From: a bacterium
GTDB taxonomy: Bacteria; Bacteroidota; Ignavibacteria; Kapaibacteriales; UBA2268
NCBI GenBank assembly: GCA_030431515.1
Contig: JAUIIX010000028.1
Span: 1-38,038, forward strand
DNA: 38,038 nucleotides
Reading direction: 5' to 3'
Below are positions 16,499-29,229 of this stretch, piece by piece. Position numbers and translations under genes: made by a program. The notes below the pieces were generated by a model. That model had not been told where the DNA came from, made no database searches, and was given only the letters and a program-made list of their open reading frames with translations. How positions within the stretch are numbered: the first letter of the stretch is position 1; each line of letters starts with the position of its first letter.

Positions 16499-18646
16499 TT
16501 ATTTGTTTATCAATATTTTTTCAAATTTGATTTCGCTATTGCTCTCAATCTTTAATATATAAATACCTGCATGTAAATTGCTTGTATTTATAGTGCTATT
16601 ACCTTGTATTTCTGATTGAATTAACAACTGCCCTAAACTATTATATACCTCTACTTTACCGAAATCAATTCCTGATATTGTAACAGTTTCACTTGCAGGA
16701 TTAGGATAAATAAAAGGTGTATTATCCTTAGTTTCTACTGATGTTATTGGACTTAACTCGAAGTCAATGTTCACATATCCATCTGGGTAATCATCTCTAA
16801 ATAAATTATATGTTTCAGGAGTAGGTCTGTATTTTTCATAATCAAACTCTGATAGATTAACTTCTAATGGTCCATAACTCATAAAATTTGAAATATAATA
16901 GCCATTTTCATCAGTTACTGCTTCACTAAATTGAAAGTCCGTCATTACTAAAGATAAAACTTCAACATCTGGAACACCTTCACCTTCTAATGTTACTTTT
17001 CCGCTTACTCTTCTACAAGTTTCTTTATCTCTATCTACAATTTCAAAATCAATCCCTGTTGTATCACTTTTTAAATTAAATTCATGCATAAAGGGTTGAT
17101 AATACCAAAAATTACTATTTCCAGCCGAACCATTTATCATTCTTATTTCATCTGATGGCACATCTTCAAATCTAAAATTTCCAAAATCATCTGTTATACT
17201 TGATTTACCCCCATAACTCGATTGTAATTCTACAGGAACTCTCTTTACACCTTCCCCATCTTCAATTATTTTTCCAGAAACATCATAAAATTCTTCAGCA
17301 GTTGTTTGAACAAAATTTATAATAGTGTCTTTAGACAAAGGATAATAAACTGTTCTAGGACTGTATTTTTTGTCAAATAAAACAGGTTTCATTGTCAATT
17401 CTACGTTTGCATTAGTAGGCAAATTATCTATTTCATAATAGCCCTCGGTATTCGTTACAACCTTTAAATAAGTGGTACTTTTTTTATTATTTCTATATTC
17501 AACTTCAACACCTTCTACTGGTTCACCTTCTTCTGTTGTAACTTGCCCTGTAATTTTGTATTGCTCTTCTGAGTCAAATTTAAAGAAATCGCCTTCGTAA
17601 TAAAATAAACCTCCTTTATATGCTCCTATAATTGGAGTTCTTCCTGCCCATTCTATTTTCATTTTAGGACTATCTTCCATTGAAGCTGTGATGTCATTAT
17701 AAACCCAAGTTTCACCACCATCATTTGTAAGCAAAATTGAACCTCTAGCTCCTACAGCTATACCATTATTTTTATTATAAAATGATACTTTTTGTAAACC
17801 ACCTGCATATCCAATTGGTAAACCTTCTAATTGTTCATGTTTTTTAATCCATGATTTCCCATTATTTGTACTTTTATAAATTAAATTATATGAATTTTGA
17901 CCAAACGTTGATGATCTACTACCAACTGCAATTAAAGTATTTAAATCTATAAAACAAAAATCTTGAATATATGAAACCCTTTCATAATTGGTTGTATCAA
18001 TTATATGATGTGAACTTTCTTTGGTTTTCAATGAGTAAATACTAAAAATACTGGAACTTTTCCCTTGCGATGTAAGTATAAATAATGTATCTTCATTTTT
18101 TAGAAGTGGAGATCTTGCTTCAAATATCTTATTATTTTGATCTTCTATTTTAAACAAATCATCTCTTTTTTCCCAAGTTTCCCATCCATCATAAGTAATA
18201 TAATTATTAATAGGTGTAAAAGCCATACCTATTTTATCATCATACATATCCATCCATAATACTTCCCTTGGTGTTTCAAGGTCAACTATTCTAAATGTTT
18301 TTGCACTATCGTTGCTTACTTTTAATGTTCCTCTTTCAAAGTAAGAAATAAAATAATCATTTCCATTAGGTACAGATGCACACCAAGGTGAAAATAAAAA
18401 CTTTGGAATATCAACTAAAGGATTATATCTATATATTTCTTTCCAATCTCTACCTTGATTATACGATTTATATATTAGAGTTTCTTCATTATCTTTTGCA
18501 CTTATAGAATTTAATAAAGCATAACAATTATTTGAATCTACACAATCAATTGAAATTGGAACATAACTTTGTTTAAAAAAAGCTTCTTTCCATTCTGCTT
18601 GTAAATAAAGCGATAGAAGAGTAAATAATAGTATAATTTTTATCAT
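16499..18646 (-). CDS. T9SS-secreted protein: beta-propeller plus three carboxypeptidase-regulatory-like domains
   Basis: 715 residues. Signal peptide at about 1-17. Residues about 20-355 hold Ycf48/Asp-box-like motifs (DGWETWEK, NNGKSWIKK, NDGGETWVYND) of a beta-propeller. Three Ig-like CarboxypepD_reg-type domains follow, opening with ITGQVTTEEGEPV (about 365), VSGKIIEDGEGV (about 457) and VSGKVTLEGEGV (about 548), each with a G-x-Y/F strand (TEGYYEI, DFGNFRF, ENGYYIS). The last ~70 residues are a canonical T9SS type A domain: IYPNPASETVTISG, VEVYNSLGQ, IYILKIES, KILINK. The product is probably a surface or adhesive protein. Start supported by AGGTAAGAAT. It ends in its own terminator, so it is monocistronic. 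Confidence 0.88.
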   Translation of the reverse strand: MIKIILLFTLLSLYLQAEWKEAFFKQSYVPISIDCVDSNNCYALLNSISAKDNEETLIYKSYNQGRDWKEIYRYNPLVDIPKFLFSPWCASVPNGNDYFISYFERGTLKVSNDSAKTFRIVDLETPREVLWMDMYDDKIGMAFTPINNYITYDGWETWEKRDDLFKIEDQNNKIFEARSPLLKNEDTLFILTSQGKSSSIFSIYSLKTKESSHHIIDTTNYERVSYIQDFCFIDLNTLIAVGSRSSTFGQNSYNLIYKSTNNGKSWIKKHEQLEGLPIGYAGGLQKVSFYNKNNGIAVGARGSILLTNDGGETWVYNDITASMEDSPKMKIEWAGRTPIIGAYKGGLFYYEGDFFKFDSEEQYKITGQVTTEEGEPVEGVEVEYRNNKKSTTYLKVVTNTEGYYEIDNLPTNANVELTMKPVLFDKKYSPRTVYYPLSKDTIINFVQTTAEEFYDVSGKIIEDGEGVKRVPVELQSSYGGKSSITDDFGNFRFEDVPSDEIRMINGSAGNSNFWYYQPFMHEFNLKSDTTGIDFEIVDRDKETCRRVSGKVTLEGEGVPDVEVLSLVMTDFQFSEAVTDENGYYISNFMSYGPLEVNLSEFDYEKYRPTPETYNLFRDDYPDGYVNIDFELSPITSVETKDNTPFIYPNPASETVTISGIDFGKVEVYNSLGQLLIQSEIQGNSTINTSNLHAGIYILKIESNSEIKFEKILINK

Positions 18647-24211: not shown

Positions 24212-24916
24212 TTAGACAGCACCGATTAGTTCAAAAGCACTACAAAATTTTTCTAACTCTAAAATATTTTTTATGTTTAATTTTTTATAAATATTCTCCC
24301 TATGTTTCCTAATTGTACTTTCTTTAATTCCATAATTAAAACCAATTTCTTGATTTGAATTACCTGCTGCTAATTTTTTCATAATCTCTTTTTCTCTTTT
24401 GGAAAGTAATTTGAATTTTTCCCATGATTCGCAATCTGAAAATGTATAGTTTAATATATTCTTTATTTTACTTGAACCAACTAATAAATTATCGATATTT
24501 ATTGTAATATTAAAGTATTTATCATCATCTATTAATATCTTTGAATTAAAATACCAATGTGTTATTTTATCAAATTCAAACTTCATATAATATCTGCAAA
24601 TAGAAGATTTATCATTCATTTTGTGGAATTTATTAATAATATTTTTATTATAATTCCAAAACATTTTATCTGAATATAATTTTAATTCTATTCCTTTTGG
24701 TAATTCATTTTTAAAATAATAATGAGAATTATCAGTTAAATCTCTATTCTTCCAATTCCAATTCAAGGTTTTAACATCTTCTATATATATAATATATGAC
24801 ATGTTTTCGGATAAATAATTAAACTTAGTTTTATCAATATTATAAAGTTTAAAAATTTTAAAGGCATCAAAAGTAATAGAATTACCTAATCTACTTTTTG
24901 ACAATATATTATTCAT
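24212..24916 (-). CDS. LuxR-type transcriptional regulator
   Basis: 234 residues. The C-terminal third is a clear GerE/LuxR helix-turn-helix: LSKREKEIMKKLAAG (171-185), NSNQEIG, then the recognition helix region KESTIRKHRENIYKKLNIKN (198-217). The N-terminal ~160 residues resemble the PAS-like sensor halves of Bacteroidota LuxR proteins but no specific ligand motif is seen. There is no receiver-domain Asp, so it is not a standard response regulator. A TAATTTTG -7 box lies at 24946-24953. The gene diverges from the two IPTL-CTERM FG-GAP genes, and the region between holds two TACG/CGTA dyads typical in form of LuxR-family sites. It probably controls that pair and itself; this is inference. Confidence 0.85.
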   Translation of the reverse strand: MNNILSKSRLGNSITFDAFKIFKLYNIDKTKFNYLSENMSYIIYIEDVKTLNWNWKNRDLTDNSHYYFKNELPKGIELKLYSDKMFWNYNKNIINKFHKMNDKSSICRYYMKFEFDKITHWYFNSKILIDDDKYFNITINIDNLLVGSSKIKNILNYTFSDCESWEKFKLLSKREKEIMKKLAAGNSNQEIGFNYGIKESTIRKHRENIYKKLNIKNILELEKFCSAFELIGAV

Positions 24917-24945
24917 AATTCATAACTTTATCTGAAATAATGTAT

Positions 24946-24953
24946 CAAAATTA
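24946..24953 (-). promoter_or_regulatory. -7 element TAATTTTG for the LuxR-type gene
   Basis: Minus-strand match to TAnnTTTG, 29 bases upstream of the ATG at 24916. No -33 TTTG found at N20, which would fit an activated promoter. Confidence 0.45.
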
Positions 24954-24991
24954 ATAAAATTTTTAATAAATTTTTAATAAATTCAGAAAAA

Positions 24992-25048
24992 TACGAAATT
25001 TACCGTAGAAATATTACTAAAAAATTTAAAAATACGACTTATATCGTA
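24992..25048. promoter_or_regulatory. Two candidate operator dyads for the LuxR-type regulator
   Basis: TACGAAATTTACCGTA (24992-25007) and TACGACTTATATCGTA (25033-25048). Both are 16 bases with TACG...CGTA arms, both are followed by GAA(A)TAT, and their centres are 41 bp apart, close to four helical turns. They lie between the divergent LuxR gene and the FG-GAP genes. A near-match -7 TAACTTTA at 25065-25072 would place the second dyad over the -33 region. Confidence 0.6.
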
Positions 25049-25148
25049 GAATATATTTAAATGATAACTTTAAATTGCTTAATTATTTTTAAAATAAATT
25101 CAAATTAGTAAAATATTATAATAAATCATAGGTTTAAGGGGTTATTTA

Positions 25149-25196
25149 ATGAAATTATTCATATACATATTTTTGCTTTTAAGCATAAATTCAGCT
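25149..25196 (+). repeat. 48-base identical signal-peptide repeat, copy 1
   Basis: Identical, codon for codon, to 27269-27316. The leaders just upstream are also similar (GGTTATTTAATG against GGTTATTTTATG). Confidence 0.9.
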
Positions 25197-27224
25197 TTAC
25201 TTGCTGATGTCTCAGTTAATTTAATTAATAAATTAGTTGCTTCAGATAGAGATGAAAGTTATAAGTTTGGTTGGAGTGTCGATATTGATGGTGATTATGC
25301 AATAGTTGGTTCTATATGGGAAGATCCAAATGAAATAGGAGCTGCGTATATTTTTGAAAAAGATGGAAATGGGGATTGGGTGCAAGTCCAAAAAATTGTT
25401 GCATCAGATAGAAGAAATAATGATGAATTTGGAAGATCTGTTTCAATAAGCGGTAATTATGCAATAGTTGGTGCCGCTTATAATGATTATGATGAAAATG
25501 ATGCTAATTTTCTAGTTAATAATCCTGGAGCCGCATATATATTTGAACGAGTAAGTGGAACTTGGACTCAAGTTCAAAAAATAGTAGCTAGTGACAGAGC
25601 AATAGGAGATTATTTTGGATGGAACGTTTCTATTAGTGGTGATTATTTAATTGTTGGTTCTTATTGGAATGATTTGGATGAAAATGGGGGTGACTATGTA
25701 AATAGAGCTGGAGCCGCATATATATTTGAACGAGATGGAAATGGAGATTGGAACCAAGTTAATAAAATAGTAAATTCTGATAGAGAAGAAGATGATAGTT
25801 TTGGCTGGAGTGTAGCGATTAGTGGTGATTATGCTGTAGTTGGAGCTCCTAATGAAAGCCATGATAAAGTTGGGAATAATTATGTTGAAATTTCGGGTTC
25901 TGCTTATGTTTTTGAACGAGATGGAAATGGAGATTGGAGTGAGGTAGATAAAATCGTAGCTTCTGATAGACGAACTTTAGATGAATTTGGATGGAGTGTG
26001 GATATAGATGGTGATTATATTGTTGTTGGTGCTTATAAAAATGATTATGATGAAAATGATGAAAATTATATAAATGGTAATACTGGATCTGCTTATATTT
26101 TTAAAAGAGAAAGTGGAACTTGGACTCAAACTCAAAAAATCGTTGCATCTGATAGAGGAGATTCTGATTTTTTTAGTGAAAGTGTTATGATAAATGGAGA
26201 TTATATAATTGTAGGAGCTTTCAAAGAAAGTCATGATGAAAATGGATTAAATACTTTATCAAATGCAGGATCTTCTTATTTATTTATTAAAGATGAAAAT
26301 GGAGATTGGAACGAATCAAATAAATTTGTTGCTAATGACAGAAAAGTATCTGCATTTTTTGGTAATAGTGTAGCTGTAAGCAATGATTTTGTTATAATAG
26401 GTGCGTATGGTGAAGATTATGACAATAATAATTCTAATTTTATTGATCTTGCAGGAGCTGCATACATATTTGAAATAAATAACCCTTCTGCTCCTTCCAT
26501 TACAAGCTTAAGTTTAGTAGATGTTTATAATAATTCGGCTACTTTAACAAGTACAATAGACATAAATCAGTCAACTGCGACTTATACTTATGAATATGGT
26601 ACTTCTACTGGTAATTATTCTGCAACTACATCTGCTCAAGAAATTACAGCAAATGGAAGTGCTACGGTTGTATTAAGTGGATTAGATGCTGATGATGAAT
26701 ATTTTGTTAGAGTTAGAGCAGAAAATTCTATTGGAGTATCTTATTCAAGTGAATATAGTTTTGTAAATACAAATGAACCTCAAAATCATACATCTACTTT
26801 TACATTAGCTCGAAATGAAATAACTCAATTAGTATTTAATATAGAAGCTGCTGAAGATATTAGTGCAGATGGATATATTATATTATATAAACAGGGTACA
26901 ACTTTTACAGGCGAACCAGAGAATGGCGAAAATTATTCAGTTGGTGGAACAATTGGCGATGCAACAATAGGTGCTATAATTACAGATGCTACTGCTTTAA
27001 ACGCAACAGTAGCTAATTTGACAAAACAAACAGAATATCATTTTAAAATATATCCTTTTAATTGGAATGGAAGCGATATAACATCTGCCGTTTATAAAAC
27101 TGACGGTACTGTACCTTCTTTAACAGTAGTTACTGTACCTACTCTTGGCGAATGGGGAATGATTGCTTTTGTTGGGCTTATGGCAATTGGTGGTGTCTTT
27201 TATATTAGGAAAAGGATAGTGTAA
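25149..27224 (+). CDS. FG-GAP repeat surface protein with IPTLxxWG-CTERM signal (copy A)
   Basis: 691 residues. A signal peptide (1-20) is followed by seven FG-GAP-type repeats of about 60 residues (about 25-440), each reading K-hVASDR-xx-D-xFGxSVxIxGDYxIVGA-...-GxAYIFER, which should form a beta-propeller. A fibronectin-III-like domain (about 445-540, YEYGTSTGNYSATT, YFVRVRAENS) and a second beta domain (about 545-655) follow. The C-terminus (663-691) has VPTLGEWG, a hydrophobic helix and RKRIV, the IPTLxxWG-CTERM layout recognised by an exosortase (XrtH type). No exosortase gene is in the window. AAGGGG precedes the ATG by 7 bases. It is followed by a paralogue after 44 bases without a terminator. 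Probably a surface or matrix protein. Confidence 0.87.
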   Translation: MKLFIYIFLLLSINSALLADVSVNLINKLVASDRDESYKFGWSVDIDGDYAIVGSIWEDPNEIGAAYIFEKDGNGDWVQVQKIVASDRRNNDEFGRSVSISGNYAIVGAAYNDYDENDANFLVNNPGAAYIFERVSGTWTQVQKIVASDRAIGDYFGWNVSISGDYLIVGSYWNDLDENGGDYVNRAGAAYIFERDGNGDWNQVNKIVNSDREEDDSFGWSVAISGDYAVVGAPNESHDKVGNNYVEISGSAYVFERDGNGDWSEVDKIVASDRRTLDEFGWSVDIDGDYIVVGAYKNDYDENDENYINGNTGSAYIFKRESGTWTQTQKIVASDRGDSDFFSESVMINGDYIIVGAFKESHDENGLNTLSNAGSSYLFIKDENGDWNESNKFVANDRKVSAFFGNSVAVSNDFVIIGAYGEDYDNNNSNFIDLAGAAYIFEINNPSAPSITSLSLVDVYNNSATLTSTIDINQSTATYTYEYGTSTGNYSATTSAQEITANGSATVVLSGLDADDEYFVRVRAENSIGVSYSSEYSFVNTNEPQNHTSTFTLARNEITQLVFNIEAAEDISADGYIILYKQGTTFTGEPENGENYSVGGTIGDATIGAIITDATALNATVANLTKQTEYHFKIYPFNWNGSDITSAVYKTDGTVPSLTVVTVPTLGEWGMIAFVGLMAIGGVFYIRKRIV

Positions 27225-27268
27225 AATATAAAAATTTATAATAAAATTAAGGTTAAAGTGGTTATTTT

Positions 27269-27316
27269 ATGAAATTATTCATATACATATTTTTGCTTTT
27301 AAGCATAAATTCAGCT
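27269..27316 (+). repeat. 48-base identical signal-peptide repeat, copy 2
   Basis: Pairs with 25149-25196; similarity falls off sharply after the signal peptide codons. Confidence 0.9.
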
Positions 27317-29170
27317 GCATTCGCTGAAGTAACAGTAGAACAATTACAAAAATTAGTTGCTTCTGATAGAGAAGGGTCTGATAATTTTGGATGGTCTGTT
27401 GCGATAAGTGGTGATTATGCTATAGTTGGTGCTCAATCTGAAGAACATGATGAAGAAGGAAATAATGAATTATCAAACTCAGGCTCAGCTTATATTTTTG
27501 AGAATATCAGTGGAACTTGGACTCAAGTCAAAAAATTAGTCGCTTCAGATAGAGGAGCAAGTGATCATTTTGGATGGTCCGTTGCAATAAGTGGTGATTA
27601 TGCTATAGTTGGTGCTAATTCTGAAAAACATGACGCAGAAGGAAATAATGAATTATTCAATTCAGGTTCAGCATATATATTTGAAAGAGTAAGTGGAACT
27701 TGGACACAAGTTCAAAAAATAGTAGCTTCTGATAGAGAAGCACAAGATGAGTTTGGATATTCTGTTTCTATTAATGGAAATAACGCTATAGTAGGATCAA
27801 GAATTGAAGATGAGGATCCAGATGGGAATAATACATTAACAAACTCAGGCTCAGCATATATATTTGAAAGAGTAAGTGGAACTTGGACACAAGTTCAAAA
27901 AATAGTAGCTTCTGACAGAGAATTAGGTGATTACTTTGGATGGGCGGTCTCTATAAATGGTGATTACGTAGTAGTAGGTGCAAGAAATGAAAAACATGAT
28001 GTAGAAGGAAATAACGAGCTGAATGTTGCTGGCTCAGCATATATATTTGAAAGAGTAAGTGGAACATGGACACAAGTTCAAAAAATAGTAGCTTCCGATA
28101 GAGATGCTGCTGTAGAATATGGTTCATCAGTTAGTATAAGTGGTAATTACATTGTTGTAGGTGCATTGGCAGAAGATTTTGATGAATTTGGTGGGAATGA
28201 ATTAACAAATGCTGGCGCAACTTATCTCTATAAAAAAAATGAGTTAGATGAATGGATAGAGATAAAAAAGATAGTTTCAAATAATCGATATTCTAATGAT
28301 TGGTTTGGCTATTCTGTATCAATTGATGGAAATAATATATTTGTCGGGATACCTCGAAATAGTTATGATATAAATGAGGATAATAACCTAGGTTTTGCTG
28401 GCTCTGCAAAAATTTATAATATTATACCAGAAACTTCTCCAACTGCAAACACTCCTACTTTCTCAAATATTACAACATCATCGGCATCTTATTCTGTAGA
28501 GGTAGCTGATGGTGGTGCTAGCACTACTGTTACATTTGAATATGGTACTGCTACTGGAGATTATTCTGCAACAACGACAAGTCAAACAATTACAGGTGCA
28601 AGTACAACTTCTACTATTAATTTTAATGTTACTGGTCTTGATGCAAATGAGCAATATTTTGTTAGAGCTCGAGCTGAAAATAGTGTAAGTTTTTCTTACT
28701 CAATAGAAGCATCATTTTGGACATTAACTGACGAGCCAACGACACATACGAATTCATTTGCACAAGTTGGTGAATCAAATAATTCTATTTCTTTTAGTTT
28801 TCAATCATTGAATGCAATCTCAGCTGACGGATATATATTATTGAGATCATCTGGTAATATTGAAAACCCTGTTGATGGAACTACTTATTCAGTTGACGAC
28901 AATATTGGCTCTACTGTAGTTGTTGGTAAAATAACTGATGCAAACACAACAGAGTTTGTATTAAATAACCAACAATTTCAAAAATCTTATACTTTCAAAT
29001 TAGTACCTTTCAATGAAGGTGATGACCCTGCAACAACTAATTATTTCATCACAGATGCTCCAACAATAAATGCTTATACTATTCCTACATTAGGCGAATG
29101 GGGAATGATGGCTTTTGTTGGATTGATGGCATTTGCTGGTGTCTTTTATGTTAGGAAAAGGATAGTGTAA
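27269..29170 (+). CDS. FG-GAP repeat surface protein with IPTLxxWG-CTERM signal (copy B)
   Basis: 633 residues, paralogue of the preceding gene with one fewer FG-GAP repeat (six, about 25-390), then the same fibronectin-III-like and beta domains and a C-terminus IPTLGEWGMMAFVG...RKRIV (605-633). The first 48 bases are identical to copy A. Three consecutive repeats share a nearly identical ~70-base block at a period of 183 bases (61 codons), so this gene may expand or contract by recombination. The AAAGTGG leader is a weaker ribosome site than in copy A. A strong terminator follows at 29201, so A and B are likely one transcript. Confidence 0.87.
   Translation: MKLFIYIFLLLSINSAAFAEVTVEQLQKLVASDREGSDNFGWSVAISGDYAIVGAQSEEHDEEGNNELSNSGSAYIFENISGTWTQVKKLVASDRGASDHFGWSVAISGDYAIVGANSEKHDAEGNNELFNSGSAYIFERVSGTWTQVQKIVASDREAQDEFGYSVSINGNNAIVGSRIEDEDPDGNNTLTNSGSAYIFERVSGTWTQVQKIVASDRELGDYFGWAVSINGDYVVVGARNEKHDVEGNNELNVAGSAYIFERVSGTWTQVQKIVASDRDAAVEYGSSVSISGNYIVVGALAEDFDEFGGNELTNAGATYLYKKNELDEWIEIKKIVSNNRYSNDWFGYSVSIDGNNIFVGIPRNSYDINEDNNLGFAGSAKIYNIIPETSPTANTPTFSNITTSSASYSVEVADGGASTTVTFEYGTATGDYSATTTSQTITGASTTSTINFNVTGLDANEQYFVRARAENSVSFSYSIEASFWTLTDEPTTHTNSFAQVGESNNSISFSFQSLNAISADGYILLRSSGNIENPVDGTTYSVDDNIGSTVVVGKITDANTTEFVLNNQQFQKSYTFKLVPFNEGDDPATTNYFITDAPTINAYTIPTLGEWGMMAFVGLMAFAGVFYVRKRIV
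27668..28110 (+). repeat. In-frame 183-base tandem repeat units
   Basis: A near-identical block beginning TCAGCATATATATTTGAAAG starts at 27668, 27851 and 28034, spacing 183 bases exactly each time. A related block is in copy A near 25530. These are coding repeats (61 residues), not a CRISPR array. Confidence 0.85.
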
Positions 29171-29200
29171 AAGTAATATTAATTCTAATCGATTTAAAAT

Positions 29201-29229
29201 AAAGCAAGGTTTAAGCACCTTGCTTTTTT
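29201..29229 (+). terminator. Terminator of the FG-GAP gene pair
   Basis: Perfect 10-bp stem AAAGCAAGGT (29201-29210) / ACCTTGCTTT (29217-29226), loop TTAAGC, followed by T. Confidence 0.88.

Follow-up and report, generated by a model that had tools for sequence, protein, structure and literature searches.

The closest described counterparts of the element considered here, a pair of inverted repeats between a LuxR-type regulator gene and two surface protein genes in a Kapaibacteriales (Bacteroidota) contig, are the 7-2-7 operators of NarL/FixJ proteins at class II promoters of E. coli. The NarL site TACCCCTAAAGGGGTA has a TAC-N10-GTA geometry, and NarL sites lie at -40 to -49 at napF and at -38 to -47 at yeaR (PMC4549865). 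The primary promoter type of the phylum carries a TAnnTTTG-type -7 box at -12 to -5, and the SM5 motif of F. psychrophilum contains a TAnnTTGY box (PMC9723704). In the open-access literature no operator was found for receiver-less LuxR-type proteins of Bacteroidota, nor was a pairing of a LuxR-type protein with an AidH-like hydrolase in this phylum, and absence there is weak evidence. The stretch analysed (the window) is the 38,038 nucleotides of contig JAUIIX010000028.1, assembly GCA_030431515.1. Its two dyads are probably NarL 7-2-7-type operators of the adjacent regulator, a PAS-LuxR protein, which would activate a divergent cargo operon within a multi-locus envelope and surface regulon. 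The features of the locus are as follows.

24212-24916, minus strand: PAS-LuxR regulator, 234 amino acids; PAS-like sensor at residues ~28-141 and GerE helix-turn-helix at 170-221 (Pfam GerE, E=1e-16)
24946-24953, minus strand: candidate -7 box TAATTTTG of the regulator promoter; exact TAnnTTTG at dyad 1 +39
24992-25007, plus strand: dyad 1, TACGAAATTTACCGTA, upstream putative operator; left A-tract AAAAA at 24987-24991
25033-25048, plus strand: dyad 2, TACGACTTATATCGTA, promoter-proximal putative operator; left A-tract AAAAA at 25028-25032
25071-25078, plus strand: candidate -7 box TAAATTGC of the cargo promoter, SM5 type; exact TAnnTTGY at dyad 2 +23
25149-27224, plus strand: FG-GAP repeat, fn3-like, IPTL-CTERM surface protein, 691 amino acids (FG-GAP_2, E=4.1e-104; fn3, 1.2e-6; IPTL-CTERM above cut-off)
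27269-29170, plus strand: second FG-GAP repeat, IPTL-CTERM protein, 633 amino acids; tandem paralog, 49% identical to the first
29201-29226, plus strand: intrinsic terminator with a 10-bp stem, 6-nt loop and T tail

The dyads and their distribution in the genome

Both dyads are 16-bp TAC-N10-GTA inverted repeats, as in the NarL 7-2-7 site. Their positions, their 41-bp spacing and their location between the LuxR-type gene and the FG-GAP genes, as given in a preliminary description of this DNA, were reproduced. The window has two copies of TACG-N8-CGTA where 0.11 are expected, and none of 100 dinucleotide shuffles reached two; with a preceding left AAAA there are again two, against 0.00 expected. 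The dyads had been said to share their right flank; the right flanks (GAAATAT and GAATATA) are only loosely alike, and the closest agreement is on the left, where both have AAAAATACG. The pattern first proposed, TACGNNNTNTANCGTA, has six matches genome-wide, three of them on contig C19. Its central T-N-TA does not belong to the motif, being absent from the A-tract-oriented C19 sites on that strand. It was dropped in favour of AAAATACG-N8-CGTA on account of this lost core and of an extra match inside a gene (C42:71650).

Pattern searches of the genome (3.55 Mb, 160 contigs) found six exact matches to AAAATACG-N8-CGTA: two in the window, three on C19 and one on C51, all on the strand facing the probable cargo. 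The three C19 sites lie beside three full-length paralogs of the window regulator (34, 32 and 29% identity), and the C51 site lies upstream of envelope genes. Elsewhere in the taxonomic family (f1), genomes hold zero to two exact matches each. Far from being frequent at random intergenic positions, the pattern is thus rare, with six oriented sites of which three adjoin regulator paralogs. Four IPTL-CTERM genes on C121 have no dyad even at one mismatch or fewer; the dyad therefore marks envelope or surface genes, mostly near PAS-LuxR regulators, rather than IPTL-CTERM genes in general. Nor does the locus form the self-contained, dedicated circuit originally envisaged. The dyad recurs three times on C19 and once on C51, the genome has four paralogous regulators, and the exosortase that would be expected to process IPTL-CTERM proteins is encoded on C121, so that the window circuit would be one arm of a dispersed regulon.

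C19 also holds a 43-amino-acid open remnant of an IPTL-CTERM gene (C19:129644-129715; L049:11645-11716), near-identical to the 3' end of 27269-29170 and lying just upstream of dyad C19c, which suggests that cargo underwent deletion or recombination at the regulator locus. Elsewhere on this contig (L049:13624-16792) two proteins carry NIPIWDWW near the C terminus, followed by a hydrophobic segment and then a basic end, in what looks like a further C-terminal sorting signal.

A composite promoter across the class

At C51 and at two of the three C19 sites, TTG comes immediately after the dyad, and a TAnnTTTG-like box after a further 20 bases. When 391 genomes of the class were searched for the composite AAAATACG-N8-CGTA-TTG, 29 of them gave a total of 34 matches; a reversed control gave about 4, so that the enrichment is about 8-fold. 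Two features outside the selection of these sites accompany it. A -7-like octamer occurs at dyad +24 in 14 of the 31 composite sites read, any other offset being used at most twice. A GerE gene lies within the 3-kb locus at 12 of the 29 sites from other genomes, often less than 50 bp away, against 0.65% expected for each site, an expectation that rests on the small number of GerE genes (7.6 per class genome). The corresponding binomial probability is 2.6e-19; collapsing close relatives (8 of 24) gives 2e-12. The -7 peak at +24, taken with a box that spans -12 to -5, centres the dyad of the composite class at -43.5, which falls within the range of the NarL sites at napF and yeaR. The earlier suggestion that TAC...GTA dyads are typical sites for GerE/LuxR-fold proteins thus gains from geometry, rarity, proximity to paralogs and class-wide linkage to GerE genes, and on these sequence features the dyads are very probably real operators of GerE/NarL-fold proteins.

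In the window, the predicted cargo start is at ~25083, which would place the centre of dyad 2 at ~-42.5 and that of dyad 1 at ~-83.5. On the opposite strand the predicted regulator start (~24941) would leave a 5' untranslated region of ~25 nt and centre dyad 1 at ~-58.5. A scan for sigma-70 promoters gave background levels only, as expected for this group.

Some other matches stand apart. One genome has three composite dyad-TTG sites within 9 kb (G328:C6:134581, 137628 and 143793), with no GerE gene in the 3-kb locus examined (L202). Near-perfect TACGTATAAATACGTA palindromes lie 12-60 bp past the stop codon of receiver-type LuxR genes at seven Flavobacterium loci (L097, L111, L113, L129, L151, L153 and L160) and are ambiguous between operator and terminator; TACGTA-N4-TACGTA sites in this position after Flavobacterium response regulators were excluded from the count as possible terminators. 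A Lacinutrix site, TACCCTCTAAAGGGTA, found after a regulator gene is NarL-like, but is followed by a T run and is likewise ambiguous.

The regulator, its cargo and the competing explanations

Pfam recognises GerE alone in the window regulator, and the absence of a receiver domain was confirmed; this excludes a two-component response regulator of the NarL/FixJ type. An AlphaFold model built from 20 homologs (mean predicted local distance difference test score, pLDDT, 78; predicted template modelling score, pTM, 0.71) has a PAS fold at residues ~28-141 joined to the GerE domain. The PAS region aligns with a chain of 8px4 over 107 residues (Z 10.6, root mean square deviation 2.4), and whole-chain Foldseek matches include EL222 and VqmA. 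PAS_3 was scored by Pfam in three of the 20 homologs. A receptor of the N-acyl homoserine lactone (AHL) type, or a LuxR solo of that kind, was rejected, as PF03472 is absent from all 20 family members at E <= 0.01. On the model, therefore, the protein is a PAS-LuxR regulator with a PAS-fold sensor and a C-terminal GerE domain, and it would work like a ligand- or signal-gated LuxR regulator, yet not one of the AHL type.

Both cargo proteins have the FG-GAP_2 repeats (seven in the first, six in the second) and IPTL-CTERM tails that had been ascribed to them. The tails consist of IPTL-x-EW, a transmembrane segment and a basic end, and both exceed the TIGR04174 cut-off, the second lying just below the Pfam cut-off and above that of NCBIfam. 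The scan for terminators found none in the gap between the two genes and a sole strong one at 29201-29226, in agreement with the preliminary description. The first 48 nt of the two genes are identical (25149-25196 and 27269-27316) while the proteins are 49% identical, a pattern suggesting that the signal-peptide region underwent gene conversion or was recently exchanged. The exosortase-family gene (PF09721 match, L050:13927-14424) lies outside the window, on C121, where four IPTL-CTERM genes in a row precede it (L050:4545-14424). The window also encodes, at 16499-18646, a protein with a type A tail of the type IX secretion system (T9SS), and the genome thus has both sorting systems.

These elements may be assembled into a mechanism. 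The PAS domain would sense a small ligand or other signal, upon which GerE domains would dimerise on dyad 2 (~-42.5 relative to the predicted cargo start) and, some four helical turns upstream, on dyad 1. RNA polymerase would thereby be recruited to the FG-GAP/IPTL-CTERM operon and activate it, and the divergent regulator promoter is probably tuned by the same dyads. The regulon would be run by the four paralogous regulators, one in the window and three on C19, and at loci of the C19 type a neighbouring hydrolase may serve to clear or mature the ligand. The assignment of regulators to sites, the preference for activation over repression and the ligand are the parts of this scheme that we infer.

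Several observations weigh against this scheme. There is no regulator gene adjacent to the C51 site, and C19a and C19b form a duplicated promoter and are hence not independent. In their inner bases the window dyads are unlike the C19 and C51 sites, so specificities may differ. The window cargo promoter has neither a -33 TTG nor a TAnnTTTG box at +24, only the SM5-type TAAATTGC at +23. Many class-wide sites adjoin receiver-type response regulators, so that the link concerns GerE proteins in general, and those in GC-rich loci or inside open reading frames are probably chance matches. Finally, homologs of the regulator in the f35 family and in G016 have no TACG-N8-CGTA nearby.

It is improbable that the dyads mainly autoregulate the regulator, negatively or positively, with control of the cargo incidental or exerted from another promoter. 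The cleanest -7 box of the window, TAATTTTG, does face the regulator, and the cargo side lacks the TTG. An exact regulator-side box recurs at the same +39 offset at the C19 paralog C19a, but was downgraded as support since the C19 mRNA would be nearly leaderless. Moreover, the orientation of the A-tract and the -43.5 layout point to the cargo on C19, on C51, in G070 and in the class-wide set, and the lone C51 site implies that genes other than a regulator must be controlled.

A similarly unlikely alternative is that the window dyads are bound by a C19 paralog or a receiver-type response regulator instead of by the adjacent protein. The genome encodes about ten GerE proteins, the same outer motif is found at C19, C51 and the window, and the T-x-x-KHREN residues of the recognition region are similar in the window, A and B proteins; against this stand the differing inner bases and the divergent layout shared with the neighbouring gene, by which cognate pairs are usually recognised. 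That the dyads are chance palindromes in A+T-rich intergenic DNA, or serve another role (hairpin, nucleoid protein), is very improbable, for although the arms are four bases long, the flanks A+T-rich and some class-wide matches clearly fortuitous, the shuffle test, genome-wide rarity, co-location with regulators and fixed promoter spacing all speak against it, and the dyads, lying upstream of both divergent genes, are not terminators. The operator reading, with the adjacent PAS-LuxR protein acting on the cargo operon, is thus preferred.

Distant homologs and relation to known systems

A search of 59 relatives found no direct orthologs of the regulator or of the gene pair, and conservation was therefore assessed on paralogs and more remote homologs. 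The N-terminal family of the regulator is rare: of 54 genomes in the taxonomic family 2 carry it, and of 395 in the phylum 14, the latter count including some weak matches inside long proteins. Neighbours of such genes include genes for large T9SS-tailed proteins, secreted or at the surface (f35 genomes, G106, G016 and G143), and, on C19, for envelope proteins. In G070 a AAAAATACGTTGAATAACGTA-TTG site lies between the regulator and a divergent gene, and in Winogradskyella a AAAAAAATACGCTTATAAGCGTA-TTG site lies between the regulator and a secreted-protein gene. The Winogradskyella regulator (L155:7642-8405) spans two frames, through a frameshift or sequencing error, with the adjacent hydrolase and composite dyad intact. 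Tandem arrays of two to three PAS-LuxR paralogs occur in f35 genomes (L185:4669-6788, L186:4254-5712, L187:3641-5792 and L189:4221-5654), those of L185 and L186 being flanked by giant proteins with T9SS tails. A contig labelled Thalassovita, an alphaproteobacterium (L082, PBYL01000466.1; 33% GC), carries two regulators of this otherwise Bacteroidota family and is probably mis-binned.

An alpha/beta-hydrolase gene adjoins the regulator on C19 and in G070, Lacinutrix and Winogradskyella. A profile of these four hydrolases found strong relatives (E <= 1e-25) in 4 of the 391 class genomes, the gene adjoining a GerE-domain gene in all four, two of which (the present genome and G070) had supplied sequences to the profile. 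The closest solved relatives are structures of AidH (4g5x, E=5e-28), an AHL lactonase of Ochrobactrum in which Tyr160 holds the lactone and is important for AHL turnover (PMC3532132). The C19-type hydrolases share its Ser-His-acid triad and HGN motif, but the acid is Asp where AidH has Glu219, and the position of Tyr160 is occupied by A/L/A/A, so AHL activity should not be assumed.

The gene context is suggestive of a novel form of LuxR-solo signalling in Bacteroidota. A wider and decidedly tentative proposal is that of chemical signalling by lactones or esters in this phylum, in which PAS-LuxR receptors and TACG-N8-CGTA operators would switch T9SS or exosortase cargo, the adjacent AidH-like hydrolase would destroy or mature the ligand, and the window, with a paralogous receptor and cargo to itself, would be a satellite arm. 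How Bacteroidota regulate their surface proteins has been little mapped, and the rule AAAATACG-N8-CGTA-TTG-N20-TAnnTTTG lets regulons be read from sequence, whilst the rarity of the AidH-like hydrolase, and its position beside a LuxR-type gene wherever found, make the ligand hypothesis directly testable.

A number of parallels with described systems can be drawn. The product of pip has an alpha/beta-hydrolase fold. In the plant-associated LuxR solos PipR, OryR and XccR an unpaired LuxR protein is encoded beside a pip gene (PMC10134790), and on C19 and at the homologous loci the LuxR-type gene likewise adjoins an alpha/beta-hydrolase gene. The present proteins differ in having a PAS sensor, no PF03472, an AidH-like hydrolase instead of a proline iminopeptidase, and surface cargo, and the window has a gene for neither enzyme. 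EL222, of the PAS/LOV-LuxR type, and VqmA, the quorum receptor for 3,5-dimethylpyrazin-2-ol (DPO), likewise join a PAS-fold sensor to GerE and are the best whole-chain fold matches, but sequence identity is low (12-16%) and the gene context is different. The IPTL-CTERM/exosortase sorting system is represented by the tails on both cargo proteins and by an exosortase elsewhere in a genome that also has T9SS tails. With NarL/FixJ operators, finally, the composite sites share the 16-bp TAC-N10-GTA repeat, a centre at ~-43.5 and the GerE domain, whereas here the half-site is TACG with an outer A-tract, the promoter is of the Bacteroidota -33/-7 type, and a PAS sensor takes the place of the phosphorylated receiver.

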